NCBI GenBank assembly: GCA_014799595.1
Contig: JAAVHR010000016.1
Location: 8,756 to 51,837, forward strand
Origin: Clostridiales bacterium
GTDB lineage: Bacteria > Bacillota > Clostridia > Lachnospirales > Lachnospiraceae
Direction of reading: 5' to 3'
Length of the DNA stretch: 43,082 nt
A program made the position numbers and the translations under genes. The notes under the pieces were generated by a model that worked only from the letters and a program-made list of their open reading frames with translations, ran no database searches and was not told the origin of the DNA. Position 1 is the first letter of the stretch, and each line of letters opens with the position of its first letter. This document shows, in pieces, positions 1,244 through 42,560 of this stretch.

Positions 1244-1377
1244 GTAACTGTTCAGATACATGAACAGTTACGTTCTAAGCCCATGAAGATTCGCCTTCGG
1301 CGAAGGGCTTAGAACAATCAACTTTCATTTTTCTTACGAAACACGCAGTAAATGCGTGTTTCTACCTGAATAATTCC
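1244..1377 (+). mobile_element. MITE-like palindromic element, copy A (134 bp)
   Basis: Starts GTAACTGTTCAG and ends CTGAATAATTCC (degenerate TIR). Near-identical inverted copy of 15294-15427. TAAAATCT is duplicated at 1236-1243 and 1378-1385, within a 16-bp direct repeat ATAATTCCTAAAATCT at 1228-1243 and 1370-1385. Confidence 0.85.
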
Positions 1378-14255: not shown

Positions 14256-14283
14256 GTAACTGTTCAGAACCATGAACAGTTAC
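14256..14283. mobile_element. 28-bp minimal TIR-TIR element, copy I
   Basis: GTAACTGTTCA-GAACCA-TGAACAGTTAC perfect 11-bp palindrome. Flanks CTTTATCC / GTTTATCT match 6/8. Confidence 0.65.
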
Positions 14284-15038: not shown

Positions 15039-15222
15039 GTTACAGTTCAGCCATGTCATTCATATTTTGCCAGTATACACTAAGGATAAAATTTTTTAAA
15101 ATTGGCTGACAAAATATGAATGTATGGCGTTAAGCATATAAAAGTATATGTACAACTTGCCCTCTGTGAGCAAGCTCCCTCGTGCAAGTTGCACATATAC
15201 TTTTGCATGACTGAACTGTTAC
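15039..15222 (+). mobile_element. MITE-like element, copy J (~184 bp)
   Basis: GTTACAGTTCAG ... CTGAACTGTTAC. Body is an inverted relative of 21294-21480 (shared AAAAGTATATGTA..GAGCAAGCTCC..ACATATACTTTTGCATG and TCATTCATATTTTGCCAG). No clear TSD. Confidence 0.65.
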
Positions 15223-15293: not shown

Positions 15294-15427
15294 GTAACTA
15301 TTCAGGTAGAAACACGCATTTACTGCGTGTTTCGTAAGAAAAATGAAAGTTGATTGTTCTAAGCCCTTCGCCGAAGGCGAATTATTATGGGCTTAGAACG
15401 TAACTGTTCATGGTTCTGAACAGTTAC
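15294..15427 (-). mobile_element. MITE-like element, copy B (134 bp)
   Basis: GTAACTATTCAG ... CTGAACAGTTAC. Perfect 8-bp flanking duplication TTATGTCT (15286-15293, 15428-15435). Inverted copy of 1244-1377. Confidence 0.9.
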
Positions 15428-19984: not shown

Positions 19985-20050
19985 GTTACTGTTTTATGTT
20001 CTTGGCACATAGCTTGACAGCAAGTGTCAAGCTTGTGAGTGAACAGTAAC
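19985..20050 (-). mobile_element. MITE-like element, copy E (66 bp)
   Basis: GTTACTGTT ... AACAGTAAC with internal AGCTTGACA..TGTCAAGCT hairpin. Perfect 8-bp flanking duplication TAAATAAG (19977-19984, 20051-20058). Body recurs inverted at 29766. Confidence 0.87.
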
Positions 20051-21293: not shown

Positions 21294-21480
21294 AATACAG
21301 TTCAACCATGCAAAAGTATATGTAAAAATTGCACGAAGGAGCTTGCTCATAGAGGGCAAATTGTACATATACTTTTATATGCTTAACGCCATACATAAAT
21401 ATTTTGTCAGCCAATTTATAACAGTTTTAGCCATGTCGTAGTATTCTGGCAAAATATGAATGACATGGCTGAACTGTTAC
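21294..21480 (-). mobile_element. MITE-like element, copy K (~187 bp)
   Basis: Ends in CTGAACTGTTAC. Body is the inverted relative of 15039-15222. The left TIR is degenerate (AATACAGTTCAA), so the start is approximate. Confidence 0.6.
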
Positions 21481-24577: not shown

Positions 24578-24605
24578 GTAACTGTTCAGAAGCATGAACA
24601 GTTAC
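24578..24605. repeat. 28-bp TIR-TIR palindrome, copy N
   Basis: GTAACTGTTCA-GAAGCA-TGAACAGTTAC, followed by CTGCAATATAAGTCATGAATAATTGAGG (second repeat type). No clear TSD. Confidence 0.6.
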
Positions 24606-25341: not shown

Positions 25342-25363
25342 CTATCACTCTTTAATTTCTACT

Positions 25364-25487
25364 ATATCTGTTCAGTACCTGAACAGATATGAGATTTTAG
25401 CCCATAAAAATTCGCAAAGCGAAGGGCTAAAATCTTGTAAAACTCGGATTTATCAAGCAAATCCTCGAGTATGTTCTGAACAATTAA
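25364..25487 (+). mobile_element. MITE-like element, copy C (124 bp)
   Basis: ATATCTGTTCAG ... CTGAACAATTAA (degenerate TIRs). Inverted copy of 32395-32518. Flanks TTTCTACT / TTTTTACT match 7/8. Confidence 0.85.
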
Positions 25488-25490
25488 TTT

Positions 25491-26549
25491 TTACTTTCTT
25501 AAACTTCGTCTCATAGCATCCTGATTGATACAATGATACAATGCATCATTTTCATCAATTTTCCCATCTTTATATAACTTTAGAATACTGTCATCCATAG
25601 CAATCATTCCATCTTCTTTGGAGGTAGCAATTGTTGCTGGTATCTGGTGAACCTTTCCATCACGGATCAGGGTACGTACTGCATTATTAACCTTTAAAAT
25701 TTCAAATGCAGGAGCCAGTTTACCATTCACTGTAGGTATTAATTGTTGAGAAATCACCGCCTCTAAAACCATGGAAAGCTGGAAACGTATTTGTTGTTGT
25801 TGTTCTGGTGGAAAAACATCTACAATACGGTCAATCGTATTGGATGCTCCAACTGTATGTAAGGTAGACAACACCAAATGTCCTGTCTCAGCGGCAGTCA
25901 TCGCAATCTCAATGGTCTCTAAATCCCGCATTTCTCCAATCAAAATAACATCTGGTGCTTCACGAAGTGCTGCTTTTAATGCTCTGCTGTAATTGGCACT
26001 ATCTATACCAATCTCTCTTTGACTGACAATACTCTTATTATGTGCATGAAGAAACTCAATAGGATCTTCCAAAGTTAAAATATGACAATTCCGGCTTCTA
26101 TTAATTTTGTCAATAATATATGCTAATGTGGTACTTTTTCCACTTCCCGCAGAACCAGTAACTAATATCAATCCCTTTTGTTTTTTTCCAATATCCAAAA
26201 TCGTCTGTGGAATTCCCATTATCTGTACATGTGGTAATTCAAAATTTACCACTCGGAGAACAGCTCCCCAAGAACCTCTCTGTTTAAACACATTTACACG
26301 GAATCGTCCGACATGTGGAACAGATATAGAAAAATCATCATCTCCTAATTCTCTATTCTGGTTATTTCTTCCTGCAAGAACATAGAAACGGTCAATCAAT
26401 ACAGATAACTCATCTGGTAGTAATATCTGTTTCTCTTGTTTTTCAATAACCCCATTAATTTTAAAGGAAACTGGTTGCCCTACCACCAAAAAAATATCTG
26501 ATGCACTTTTCTCTACTGCCAGTTTTAACATTTCTTCCAATGATATCAT
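25491..26549 (-). CDS. pilT: PilT-type twitching ATPase
   Basis: VTGSAGSGKSTTLAYIIDKIN (Walker A), ILIGEMRDLETIEIAMTAAETGHLVLSTLHT, and NAVRTLIRDGKVHQIPATI, matching the PilT AIRNLIRE-type motif. Confidence 0.9.
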   Translation of the reverse strand: MISLEEMLKLAVEKSASDIFLVVGQPVSFKINGVIEKQEKQILLPDELSVLIDRFYVLAGRNNQNRELGDDDFSISVPHVGRFRVNVFKQRGSWGAVLRVVNFELPHVQIMGIPQTILDIGKKQKGLILVTGSAGSGKSTTLAYIIDKINRSRNCHILTLEDPIEFLHAHNKSIVSQREIGIDSANYSRALKAALREAPDVILIGEMRDLETIEIAMTAAETGHLVLSTLHTVGASNTIDRIVDVFPPEQQQQIRFQLSMVLEAVISQQLIPTVNGKLAPAFEILKVNNAVRTLIRDGKVHQIPATIATSKEDGMIAMDDSILKLYKDGKIDENDALYHCINQDAMRRSLRK

Positions 26550-29765: not shown

Positions 29766-29950
29766 GTTACTGTTCACTCACAAGCTTGACACTTGCTGTC
29801 AAGCTATGTGCCAAGAACATGGAACAGCCAAGAATCCAGCCTTTCGCTGAAGGCGAACTTTTAATAGGCTGGATTCCGTTACAGTTTGCACCGTAGGTGT
29901 GAACTGTAACTATTCTGGCACTTTATGAATGAACCCCGCTGGTCTGTTAC
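29766..29950 (+). mobile_element. Mosaic MITE-like element, copy L (~185 bp)
   Basis: Begins GTTACTGTTCACTCACAAGCTTGACACTTGCTGTCAAGCTATGTGCCAAGAACAT (reverse complement of the copy E body), then a new hairpin, then TATTCTGGCA..TATGAATGA..CTGTTAC shared with the end of copy K. Confidence 0.65.
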
Positions 29951-32357: not shown

Positions 32358-32394
32358 CATTTTCTACTCTTATAAAAACTATAGAAACTAAGAT

Positions 32395-32518
32395 GTAACT
32401 GTTCAGAACATACTCGAGGATTTGCTTGACAAATCCGAGTTTTACAAGATTTTAGCCCTTCGCTTTGCGAATTTATATGGGCTAAAATCTCATATCTGTT
32501 CAGGTACTGAACAGATAC
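32395..32518 (-). mobile_element. MITE-like element, copy D (124 bp)
   Basis: GTAACTGTTCAG ... CTGAACAGATAC. Perfect 8-bp flanking duplication ACTAAGAT (32387-32394, 32519-32526). Inverted copy of 25364-25487. Confidence 0.92.
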
Positions 32519-32525
32519 ACTAAGA

Positions 32526-38193: not shown

Positions 38194-38202
38194 ACTCTAA
38201 AA

Positions 38203-38423
38203 GTGTTATCAATAGATATACCATTGGTTTGTGCTTGCACAAAGACCAATTGGTATATCTATCGTAGAACCTGATGTATATGAGCATATAAGGCGATAGC
38301 CTAGAATGCAAATACACATTAGGCGGTTATGAAAGCACGCAGTGCGGAGTAACCGACACTTTCATTTTTGGTGATGCTACCGAAGGCAGCATATAGGTTT
38401 ACTATGGAAATGTTATCGATTAA
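38203..38423. repeat. Structured intergenic element downstream of ileS
   Basis: Near-direct repeats GTGTTATCAATAG and ATGTTATCGATTA flank a ~200-bp segment rich in hairpins (ATAGATATACCATTGGTTTGTGC-tt-GCACAAAGACCAATTGGTATATCTAT; AGGCgatAGCCT). Confidence 0.4.
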
Positions 38424-41400
38424 TTCGTTCTACAGCCATTGTTACAGTCTCACCATTTACATCCCATTCTTTTACATAACCATCTATATCACCAAGAATA
38501 ATGCTGTCTGCCAAAACTTTTTCTTTAATGCTGTCTGCATTTCTCTTTAAGACTTGTGCAATCTTATCATTGCCATCTGCATAAACATGAATGCGATCCA
38601 TCACTTCAAAATCTGCTTCTTTACGCATTGTCTGAATCTTGCTGATAAGCTCAAGAACATATCCTTCCTCAATAAGCTCTTCATTCAGCGTAGTATCCAG
38701 AACTACAGTAATACCATGATCGCTTTCTGATACAAAGCCTTCCATCTGTGCAGCTTCAATCAGTAAATCATCTTTTTCCAAAACTTCATCTTTATCATTA
38801 AAGTGAATGGTTAAATTACCCTTTTCATTTAATTCGTCCATCGCTTCATTACCATTTAAGTTTGCAAGAAATTCTTTTAGGGCATTGATATCTTTACCAA
38901 ACCTTTTACCTAAAGTCTTTAACTGTGGCTTAAAGGTGTAAGAAGTAAATTCTCTTACATCCTCAGTAAAGATAACTTCTTTTACATTCAATTCTTCTGC
39001 AATAATTTCTTTGTAGAAATCAGACAATTCATTCTCTGCTTTCACAAACATCTTGCCAATTGGCTGTCTATTCTTAATATTTGCAGTATTTCTGCAGGCA
39101 CGTCCCAATACAACTGCTTCTAGTACCTCCTCCATATCTGCTTCAAGCTTTTTGTCGATCCATTCTTCTTTTACTGTTGGGAAGTCACAAAGATGAATAC
39201 TCTCTGGAGCATTCTCATCTACGCTTCTTACCATATTCTGGTAAATATCCTCTGTCATAAAAGGAATCATTGGTGCACTTGCTTTACAAATGGTAACCAA
39301 AGCAGTATATAAAGTCATATATGCATTAATCTTGTCCTGTTCCATTCCTTTTGCCCAGAAACGCTCACGTCCACGACGTACATACCAGTTACTCATTTCA
39401 TCTACAAATTCCTGTAATGCTCTTGCTGTCTCTGGCAGCTTGTAATTTGATAAATTCTCATCTACCGTTTTTACAACTGTGTTCAGCTTAGAAAGCAGCC
39501 ATTTGTCCATAACCGGAAGATTCTCATAATCTAAAATATAATTCTTTGGATTAAATTCGTCAATTTCCGCATACAAAACAAAGAATGCATAAGTATTCCA
39601 AAGAGTACCCATAAACTTACGTTGTCCCTCGGTTACTGCCTTTCCATGGAAACGGTTTGGCAGCCATGGAGCACTGTTAATATAAAAATACCAACGAATG
39701 GCATCTGCACCATATTCATTCAATGCTTCCATTGGATCAATAGCATTTCCTTTGGACTTAGACATCTTCTGCCCATTCTCATCCTGCACATGACCAAGAA
39801 CAATAACATTCTTATATGGAGCCTTATTAAATAACAAGGTAGAAATTGCAAGGAGAGAATAGAACCATCCTCTGGTCTGGTCTACCGCCTCAGAAATAAA
39901 ATCTGCCGGGAACTGTTTCTCAAATAAATCTTTATTTTCAAATGGATAATGATGTTGTGCAAATGGCATAGAGCCTGAATCAAACCAGCAGTCAATCACT
40001 TCTGGTACTCTCTTCATCTCTTTGCCGCAATCTGGACATTTGATGGTTACCGCATCAATGTATGGACGATGCAATTCTATATCATCTGGACAATTATCCG
40101 ACATACTCTTTAATTCTTCAATACTTCCAATGGCATGCTGGCATCCACAACTACATTCCCAGATATTTAATGGTGTTCCCCAGTAACGGTTACGGCTTAC
40201 ACCCCAGTCCTGCACATTTTCTAACCAGTCACCAAAACGTCCTTTTCCAATAGTTGCTGGAATCCAATTAATGGTATTGTTATTTGCAATCAAATCATCT
40301 TTTACTGCTGTCATTTTAATAAACCATGATTCTCTTGCATAATAAATTAATGGGGTATCACATCTCCAACAGAATGGGTAACTATGCTCAAATTTCAACG
40401 CTTTAAATAGCAGTTTCTTTGCAGCCAATGATTTAAACACAAGTTCATCTGCCTTCTTACAGAATACACCTGCCATGTCGGTAACTTCTGGTTTCATTTC
40501 ACCTTTTTCATCTACTAACTGTACAAAAGGCAAATCATATTTTCGACCAACCTTCGCATCATCTTCACCAAATGCAGGAGCGATATGAACCACTCCAGTA
40601 CCATCTGTCAAGGTTACATAGGTATCACAAACCACATAGAAAGCTTTTTTGTTTCCAACCATGGTACGGTCACCAGGGTCTCCTACTGTTCCATCTGGTT
40701 TGTTAAAAGCATAATCAAACAATGGTACATACTGTTTGTGTTCTAAATCTGTACCCACATAAGTCTCTACTACTTCGTATTTTCCATCAATCACAGAAGA
40801 AAGTAATGCTTCTGCCATAATATAATATTCTGTTCTAACAGCAGTATCTTCTTCTCCTTCTTTTACCACATCATTTTTTTCATTTACCTGCACTTTTATC
40901 TTTACATATTGCTCGTTTGGATTCACACAAAGAGCCACGTTAGAAGGCAATGTCCAAGGGGTAGTGGTCCATGCTAAGATATACTCATCTTCTGTGCCTG
41001 CTACCTTAAACTTTGCAATAGCAGATTTTTCTTTTACATCTTTGTATCCTTGTGCCACTTCATGAGAAGAAAGGGGAGTTCCACAACGTGGGCAGTAAGG
41101 CACAATCTTATGGCCTTTGTACAAAAGTTTTTTATCCCAGATATTCTTTAAAGCCCACCATTCTGATTCAATAAAATCATTGTGGTAGGTAACATAAGGA
41201 TTGTCCATATCTGCCCAGAAACCAACAGTTCCCGAAAAATCTTCCCACATACCTTTATATTTCCATACAGATTCTTTACATTTTGTGATAAATGGCTCTA
41301 AACCATATTCTTCAATTTGTTCTTTTCCATCCAAGCCAAGAAGTTTCTCTACTTCCAATTCTACCGGAAGTCCATGGGTATCCCATCCGGCTTTTCTTGG

Positions 41401-41637
41401 CACCATTTTTCCTTTCATGGTCTGATATCTTGGAATCATATCCTTGATAACACGGGTCAACACATGACCAATGTGAGGCTTACCATTAGCTGTTGGTGGT
41501 CCATCATAAAAAGTATAGGTTTCTCCTTCTTTTCTTGAATCCATACTTTTCTTAAAAATGTCATTATCTTTCCAAAACTTCTCTACTGCTTTCTCTCTGT
41601 CAACGAAATTAAGATTCTTATCAACTTTCTGATACAT
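38413..41637 (-). CDS. ileS: Isoleucine--tRNA ligase
   Basis: 1074 aa; HIGH-type motif GKPHIGHVLTRVIKD, KMSKSKGNAIDP, C-terminal anticodon-binding domain. Confidence 0.97.
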   Translation of the reverse strand: MYQKVDKNLNFVDREKAVEKFWKDNDIFKKSMDSRKEGETYTFYDGPPTANGKPHIGHVLTRVIKDMIPRYQTMKGKMVPRKAGWDTHGLPVELEVEKLLGLDGKEQIEEYGLEPFITKCKESVWKYKGMWEDFSGTVGFWADMDNPYVTYHNDFIESEWWALKNIWDKKLLYKGHKIVPYCPRCGTPLSSHEVAQGYKDVKEKSAIAKFKVAGTEDEYILAWTTTPWTLPSNVALCVNPNEQYVKIKVQVNEKNDVVKEGEEDTAVRTEYYIMAEALLSSVIDGKYEVVETYVGTDLEHKQYVPLFDYAFNKPDGTVGDPGDRTMVGNKKAFYVVCDTYVTLTDGTGVVHIAPAFGEDDAKVGRKYDLPFVQLVDEKGEMKPEVTDMAGVFCKKADELVFKSLAAKKLLFKALKFEHSYPFCWRCDTPLIYYARESWFIKMTAVKDDLIANNNTINWIPATIGKGRFGDWLENVQDWGVSRNRYWGTPLNIWECSCGCQHAIGSIEELKSMSDNCPDDIELHRPYIDAVTIKCPDCGKEMKRVPEVIDCWFDSGSMPFAQHHYPFENKDLFEKQFPADFISEAVDQTRGWFYSLLAISTLLFNKAPYKNVIVLGHVQDENGQKMSKSKGNAIDPMEALNEYGADAIRWYFYINSAPWLPNRFHGKAVTEGQRKFMGTLWNTYAFFVLYAEIDEFNPKNYILDYENLPVMDKWLLSKLNTVVKTVDENLSNYKLPETARALQEFVDEMSNWYVRRGRERFWAKGMEQDKINAYMTLYTALVTICKASAPMIPFMTEDIYQNMVRSVDENAPESIHLCDFPTVKEEWIDKKLEADMEEVLEAVVLGRACRNTANIKNRQPIGKMFVKAENELSDFYKEIIAEELNVKEVIFTEDVREFTSYTFKPQLKTLGKRFGKDINALKEFLANLNGNEAMDELNEKGNLTIHFNDKDEVLEKDDLLIEAAQMEGFVSESDHGITVVLDTTLNEELIEEGYVLELISKIQTMRKEADFEVMDRIHVYADGNDKIAQVLKRNADSIKEKVLADSIILGDIDGYVKEWDVNGETVTMAVERINR

Positions 41638-41665
41638 TTCTAATCCTCCTTTTTTTCTCTCATTT

Positions 41666-41693
41666 GTAACTGTTCAGAACCATGAACAGTTAC
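41666..41693. mobile_element. 28-bp minimal TIR-TIR element, copy F, between NUDIX and ileS
   Basis: GTAACTGTTCA-GAACCA-TGAACAGTTAC with perfect 8-bp flanking duplication TCTCATTT (41658-41665, 41694-41701). Confidence 0.85.
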
Positions 41694-41703
41694 TCTCATT
41701 TTA

Positions 41704-42228
41704 CTAATTCTCTCTTGTAATCCATCCACTTTCCCGCAACTGCTGTATCTGGTAAAATATCCAGTCTAGATAGTCATATTCCCAGAATTCTTTCTTCTTC
41801 ACCATATCCATAATAATCTCTGGTGTTGCCCATTTGGCATCTGTCACTTCTTCTTTTTGTAAAGTAAGGTCAGATAATTCAGCATCGGAACGTACCATCC
41901 AGACACAACGGTAACGTCCTGGCTTCTGGGTAATACTAAGCAAACGAAAATCTTCTTTTGGTGGTGTAATTCCCAGTTCTTCTTCTAATTCCCTGCAACA
42001 TCCAGCAAACATTTCTTCTCCTGCAATTACAGATCCTCCAGTAATTGCCCACATTCCTGGTTTCGTCTTTAATGTATTGGCTCTCTTTTGTATAAGTATT
42101 TCTCCTTTATGGTTCACTGGATATACATGAACAATTAAATGATAATCACCTTGTGGCATCTCTTCCCCCCTTATGTGGGTTCTGCCTGTTTTTTGTAGGT
42201 ACTGGTCGTACACATCCCATAATTCCAT
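41704..42228 (-). CDS. NUDIX hydrolase
   Basis: 174 aa; NUDIX box variant GGSVIAGEEMFAGCCRELEEELGI. Confidence 0.9.
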   Translation of the reverse strand: MELWDVYDQYLQKTGRTHIRGEEMPQGDYHLIVHVYPVNHKGEILIQKRANTLKTKPGMWAITGGSVIAGEEMFAGCCRELEEELGITPPKEDFRLLSITQKPGRYRCVWMVRSDAELSDLTLQKEEVTDAKWATPEIIMDMVKKKEFWEYDYLDWIFYQIQQLRESGWITREN

Positions 42229-42309: not shown

Positions 42310-42560
42310 ATACAAAAAGCTTTCGTCCCAAACAGGACGAAAGCTCTAGCAATCTTAACCACCTATTCGACTGTACTCTGCAAAATGCATTCATACATGC
42401 TCCATATAACGGTGGAACCCGGCCCAGCTTACTTATTCTTTCAGCTTGCAACTTAGGAGTGATATTCCACTGCATATACTAGTACTGGTTTCCCACTATC
42501 ACCAGCTCACTGAAACACTTCCATGCAGTTTACTGTCTCCATCTTCGTCTTTTCACACTC
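42310..42560 (-). promoter_or_regulatory. T-box leader (Ile, AUC specifier) upstream of NUDIX-ileS
   Basis: Minus-strand start GAAAAGACGAAGATGG resembles the pheS leader start. Specifier context GTGGAATATCACTCC with ATC at 42463-42461; AATAGGTGGTTAAG region; terminator AGAGCTTTCGTCC-tgttt-GGGACGAAAGCTTTTTG (42345-42314). Confidence 0.8.

Follow-up and report, generated by a model that had tools for sequence, protein, structure and literature searches.

The 28-bp DNA at positions 41666-41693 of the window (the whole stretch of 43,082 nucleotides analysed) is best explained as the minimal form of a non-autonomous element (MITE). This form would arise by internal deletion of a longer parent, and would also either insert as 28 bp or collapse at once to that length; we hold this combined reading with modest confidence. 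Whether this DNA, with 11 bp at each end and a spacer of 6 nt, is a mobile unit in its own right, inserted by a putative 8-bp-duplicating transposase, is close to an even call. Coordinates are collected in Table 1.

Table 1. Features in the window, and loci (L numbers) in the genomes compared
Feature	Coordinates	Strand	Remarks
28-bp element	41666..41693	.	left TIR 41666-41676, spacer GAACCA 41677-41682, right TIR 41683-41693
Left 8-bp target duplication TCTCATTT	41658..41665	.	single copy at G006 empty site
Right 8-bp target duplication TCTCATTT	41694..41701	.	single copy at G006 empty site
NUDIX hydrolase gene	41704..42228	-	ORF list; name from preliminary description; upstream of element
ileS	38413..41637	-	ORF list; name from preliminary description; downstream of element
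T-box leader	42330..42554	-	E 9.5e-16; upstream of NUDIX-ileS
Solo 28-mer	14256..14283	+	6/8 duplication CTTTATCC/GTTTATCT, degraded; G006 site empty
Solo 28-mer, spacer GAAGCA	24578..24605	+	without duplication
134-bp parent MITE	1244..1377	+	28-mer left module 1244-1271; duplication TAAAATCT; also in sister species
134-bp parent MITE	15294..15427	-	28-mer module 15400-15427; duplication TTATGTCT; three hairpins in fold
Long/solo ortholog pair	L019:9467-9603 (G000) / L153:6514 (G006)
Long/solo ortholog pair	L022:12078-12372 (G000) / L163:13493 (G006)		solo carries right-end T
Long/solo ortholog pair	L019:3567 (G000) / L153:12307 (G006)
Long/solo ortholog pair	L029:11851 (G000) / L152:8702 (G006)		second repeat inserted beside
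295-bp form with Clostridiales-1 RNA	L022:12078-12372, L015:3320-3614, L026:11350-11644, L169:8594 on
About-156-bp repeat AAAACNCCCATGC...	L149:4892-5047, L152, L007:19896, L015, L016, L027 and others
Other MITE-like repeats	25360-25499, 32383-32522, 15084-15219, 21297-21432, 19989-20050, 29766-29827

Positions 41658-41701 read TCTCATTT-GTAACTGTTCA-GAACCA-TGAACAGTTAC-TCTCATTT, that is, two inverted TIRs around 6 nt between perfect repeats, just as the preliminary description had claimed. The arms pair at 11 of 11 bp, as the terminal inverted repeats of a MITE should. Allowing up to one mismatch, the window contains 24 matches to the TIR 11-mer where 0.76 would be expected by chance. The open reading frames and the sequence agree in placing the element between NUDIX and ileS. 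On the minus-strand operon transcript the NUDIX stop codon sits 10 nt before the 28-mer and the AGGAGG ribosome site of ileS lies 3' of it; both genes and this site were left intact when the copy entered. The T-box that had been proposed upstream of the two genes is supported by a match of 74 bits, though this is under the Rfam gathering score of 93.

Origin by insertion follows from the orthologous site in a sister species (G006, 96% identical over 1.6 kb). This site, which reads CCTTTTTTTTA-TCTCATTT-TACTAA, lacks both the 28-mer and one copy of the duplication, so the 41666 copy is an insertion with an 8-bp duplication, and it entered the NUDIX-ileS gap after the split from the sister species. 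The preliminary description had suggested a search for empty sites, and had named two observations that would speak against it: a longer element in relatives at the same site with the same duplication, or TCTCATTT duplicated where the 28-mer is lacking. Neither is seen here in the sister species, where TCTCATTT stands once and an element of greater length is absent. In the more distant G003 (85%) the gap holds an unrelated insertion remnant. At another site, L157:7577-7597 in G006, all that separates the two duplications in the ortholog of a solo is TTAC, the footprint of an imprecise loss. At L012:13440-13618, compared with L175:150, a different MITE is nested within a 28-mer in one species only, and the outer duplication CTTGTTCT is retained.

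The family is abundant. The pattern TIR-N4-10-TIR has 160 exact matches in the element's own genome (3.44 Mb, 84% complete) and none in the reversed control; these 28-bp copies, about 160 in all, are non-coding and dispersed like those of a MITE. The same pattern search finds 196 and 27 copies in two other genomes of the genus and none in four further ones. Exact 28-mers are also present in Faecalicatena orotica NLAE-zl-C242 (Lachnospiraceae), a Eubacteriales MAG and a Ruminococcus sp. MAG, and other Clostridia assemblies carry identical solos with duplications. Plasmid and phage searches gave weak or partial matches only, to the long elements.

As RNA the 28-mer is predicted to form an 11-bp stem (-14.8 kcal/mol, z -2.3), and the earlier inference from sequence that the operon mRNA would carry an extra hairpin is borne out to that extent. 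It could be argued from this fold that the 28-mer is a functional hairpin under selection, which stabilises 3' ends or binds a protein, and that its duplications are coincidental or a relic. However, no U-run follows the hairpin on the operon strand, a terminator-like match being found on the opposite strand only. Moreover, the site is empty in G006 and the exact family is missing altogether from four congeners. We consider this explanation very improbable.

Copies similar to the 41666 element had been noted at two other places in the window and as the terminal module of 134-bp copies; all of these are real. In about 0.6 Mb of the own genome, with C or T allowed in the right arm, 35 of 50 28-mers (about 70%) form the left module of a long element and the remaining 15 are solo. 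The long elements measure 134-137 bp or 295 bp (134-296 bp overall), sizes standard for MITEs, and consist of the 28-mer, a second hairpin, a third hairpin and a right end CTGAATAGTTAC; on folding, the parent forms strong hairpins one after another. Long and short forms have the same kind of 8-bp duplication. When all element lengths are taken together, 73 TIR pairs have a duplication matching at 7 or more of 8 positions, against none in an offset control. Across five genomes, a count that the preliminary description had called for, 41 of 67 solos have such a duplication (shuffled mean 0.85, maximum 5), with identity ending at exactly 8 bp. The solos thus resemble MITEs in having target duplications at many independent sites. 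A second MITE family has analogous solos of 30-33 bp with duplications.

The long element also carries a passenger. In the 295-bp form a complete Clostridiales-1 RNA (RF01699) lies between the second and third hairpins. Six orthologous sites have this RNA in one species and lack it in the other, and therefore the RNA family travels partly as a MITE passenger. The window itself has a Clostridiales-1 RNA at 38200-38362 (90.7 bits), just downstream of ileS and outside any GTAAC MITE that we noticed. A second repeat, about 156 bp long (AAAACNCCCATGC...), is represented by 15 distinct copies; 13 of them sit immediately 3' of a TTAC, in most cases where a MITE of the 28-mer family has its GTTAC end. 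Elements of the IS608 type (IS200/IS605) prefer TTAC as target, a preference that the placement of this repeat resembles, which suggests that MITE ends serve as its landing sites. Other MITE-like families in the window have GTAACAGTTCA, GTATCTGTTCA or GTTACTGTTCA ends.

The structure of the parent accounts for how a 28-mer can be left behind. The left end of the 134-bp element is itself a palindrome of two TIRs, and therefore each long copy holds an internal second right-type end, TGAACAGTTAC. Together with TGAA(T)AGTTAC, the true right end, it makes up a pair of 11-bp direct repeats about 106 bp apart. Loss of the stretch between them leaves an exact 28-mer within the original duplication, and such loss is documented at four orthologous sites, where G000 has the long form and G006 the 28-mer with an identical duplication. 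At one of them (L163:13493) the solo has the T specific to the right end, as the exact recombination product should. This T is found in 7 of 44 solos (about 16%) and in 1 of 62 long modules in three congeners; T-type 28-mers are mostly solos with duplications and C-type ones mostly modules. The T/C difference was rejected as a full test of origin: a T points to deletion and a C is ambiguous, because uninterrupted homology favours C. Deletion is a real route for some solos. The preliminary description had offered transposition as 28 bp or a deletion product that kept both ends; the second is now established at the four sites above, whereas the first is suggested by frequencies. The 41666 copy may have arisen by either route.

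It is conceivable, at odds of roughly one in three in our judgement, that deletion is the only route. All solos would then have entered as a 134- or 295-bp MITE, and lost their inside later through slippage or recombination of the internal and terminal 11-bp repeats, aided by the hairpins between; the 28-mer would never be mobile by itself. The four ortholog pairs with their common duplications and the excess of right-end T among solos speak for this, as do the parent's strong hairpins, which favour slippage, and the existence of other internal deletions (50 and 69 bp). The age distribution of solos does not fit it well. Sites in stretches from both species were classed by hand from script output, loci selected for carrying the T being excluded, and an insertion was taken as lineage-specific when the other species had one duplication copy. 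Lineage-specific insertions comprise 11 solo and 18 long copies (n=29), and shared sites 12 long/long, 4 long/solo and 8 solo/solo (n=24). The solo fraction is thus 38% (11/29) in the former and 33% (8/24) in the latter (Fisher p 0.78), so that recent insertions include solos as often as shared sites do. An in-situ deletion rate fitted to 4/16 predicts 2.0 solos among the 29 recent insertions, about one-fifth of the 11 observed (tail 1.7e-6; 0.005 at the rate's upper confidence limit), on the assumptions of a constant deletion rate and of empty sites being ancestral. G003 is empty at both of the T- or C/T-type solo sites inspected (71, 73), and no site seen contradicts the second assumption.

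Two other genomes are also hard to reconcile with deletion as the only route. F. orotica has about 14 solos, seven of them with 8/8 duplications, and just three long copies, which are diverged (93-96% identical to the query element) and in two of which the internal repeat is mutated. The Eubacteriales MAG keeps young long copies with perfect 11-bp repeats. The GGACCA spacer of F. orotica was considered as the mark of a solo-specific sub-lineage and rejected: two diverged long copies carry GGACCA or a near variant, and therefore the spacer cannot decide on direct spread. From these comparisons of sequences, deletion alone seems insufficient. For many solos, the frequency and age data, together with F. 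orotica, favour 28-bp insertion and insertion-coupled collapse alike; a possible caveat is that long copies collapse more readily when newly inserted than when old.

In the mechanism that we prefer, a MITE with ends GTAACWGTTCA and an 8-bp target duplication would be mobilised in trans by a transposase recognising these ends. After internal deletion, the transposase could insert the 28-mer as a unit, because two correctly oriented ends are present. Alternatively, the long form would insert and collapse during or right after insertion. Both routes would yield fresh 28-mers with perfect 8-bp duplications. Synapsis of ends separated by just 28 bp makes high physical demands, and a mobile 28-mer would perhaps move by way of a hairpin or by pairing its ends with those of another copy. 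Profile searches found no IS66 transposase (PF03050) in G000, G003, G006 and G009, and a coarse motif scan of IS66 loci in other genomes found no matching ends. No long TIR pair with an 8/8 duplication, as expected of an autonomous element, was present in the loci scanned; at 7 or more of 8 positions, 2.7 Mb gave six long pairs against one in the control, none convincing. With PF03050 absent from the genus carriers and no autonomous element in 2.7 Mb, the family is therefore not filed as IS66-derived.

The 28-mer is only about half the length of the smallest mobile elements usually described, and if it is mobile, we know of no smaller TIR transposon. We found no paper on it, most subscription journals being outside our reach, and within the literature searched a 28-bp form that is abundant and has duplications of its own is new. 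Insertion of 28-mers as such would bring the lower size limit of a TIR transposon down to hardly more than a pair of binding sites, and models of how a transposase pairs the ends on one short duplex would have to be revised. Should collapse from 134 bp be their only source, they would be a bacterial parallel to solo LTRs, documented unusually well by ortholog pairs that show the states before and after. In both cases the family places hairpins in operons of gut Lachnospiraceae, and a cultured species, F. orotica, allows direct tests.

Several known systems resemble the 28-mer in part. In Tn10-type nearly precise excision and in solo LTRs, short remnants arise from recombination between repeats inside the element. 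The 28-mer similarly retains ends and target duplication, but unlike these remnants it has two full ends, is abundant and possibly inserts independently. To our knowledge, REPs make no 8-bp target duplications. They are palindromes of 20-40 bp with GTAG or CGTC tags (PMC3733652). A REP-like palindrome moved as single-stranded hairpin DNA by a REP-associated tyrosine transposase (RAYT) would account for the size, palindromy, intergenic place and high copy number of the 28-mer. However, clean 8-bp duplications and empty sites are unexpected of that chemistry, the ends are GTAAC rather than the REP tags, and the 28-mer terminates MITEs with the same kind of duplications, so that we rate a REP origin as the least probable of the explanations weighed. 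IS66 has GTAAGCG ends and 8-bp repeats (PMC11946415), with GTAAC ends in some members (PMC12888890). The 28-mer is like IS66 in that its ends begin GTAA (GTAAC) and its duplication is 8 bp, and unlike it in having only about 11 conserved end bases and no GTAAGCG. Bacterial MITEs are usually 50-500 bp, although 39-bp QMITE1 copies are mentioned (PMC10969869). The family shares with type II, IS-mobilised MITEs its non-coding nature, terminal inverted repeats, target duplication, high copy number and intergenic location; although the solo 28-mers fall below the usual size range and no autonomous partner was found in the loci scanned, the 134-bp parent is a standard MITE.
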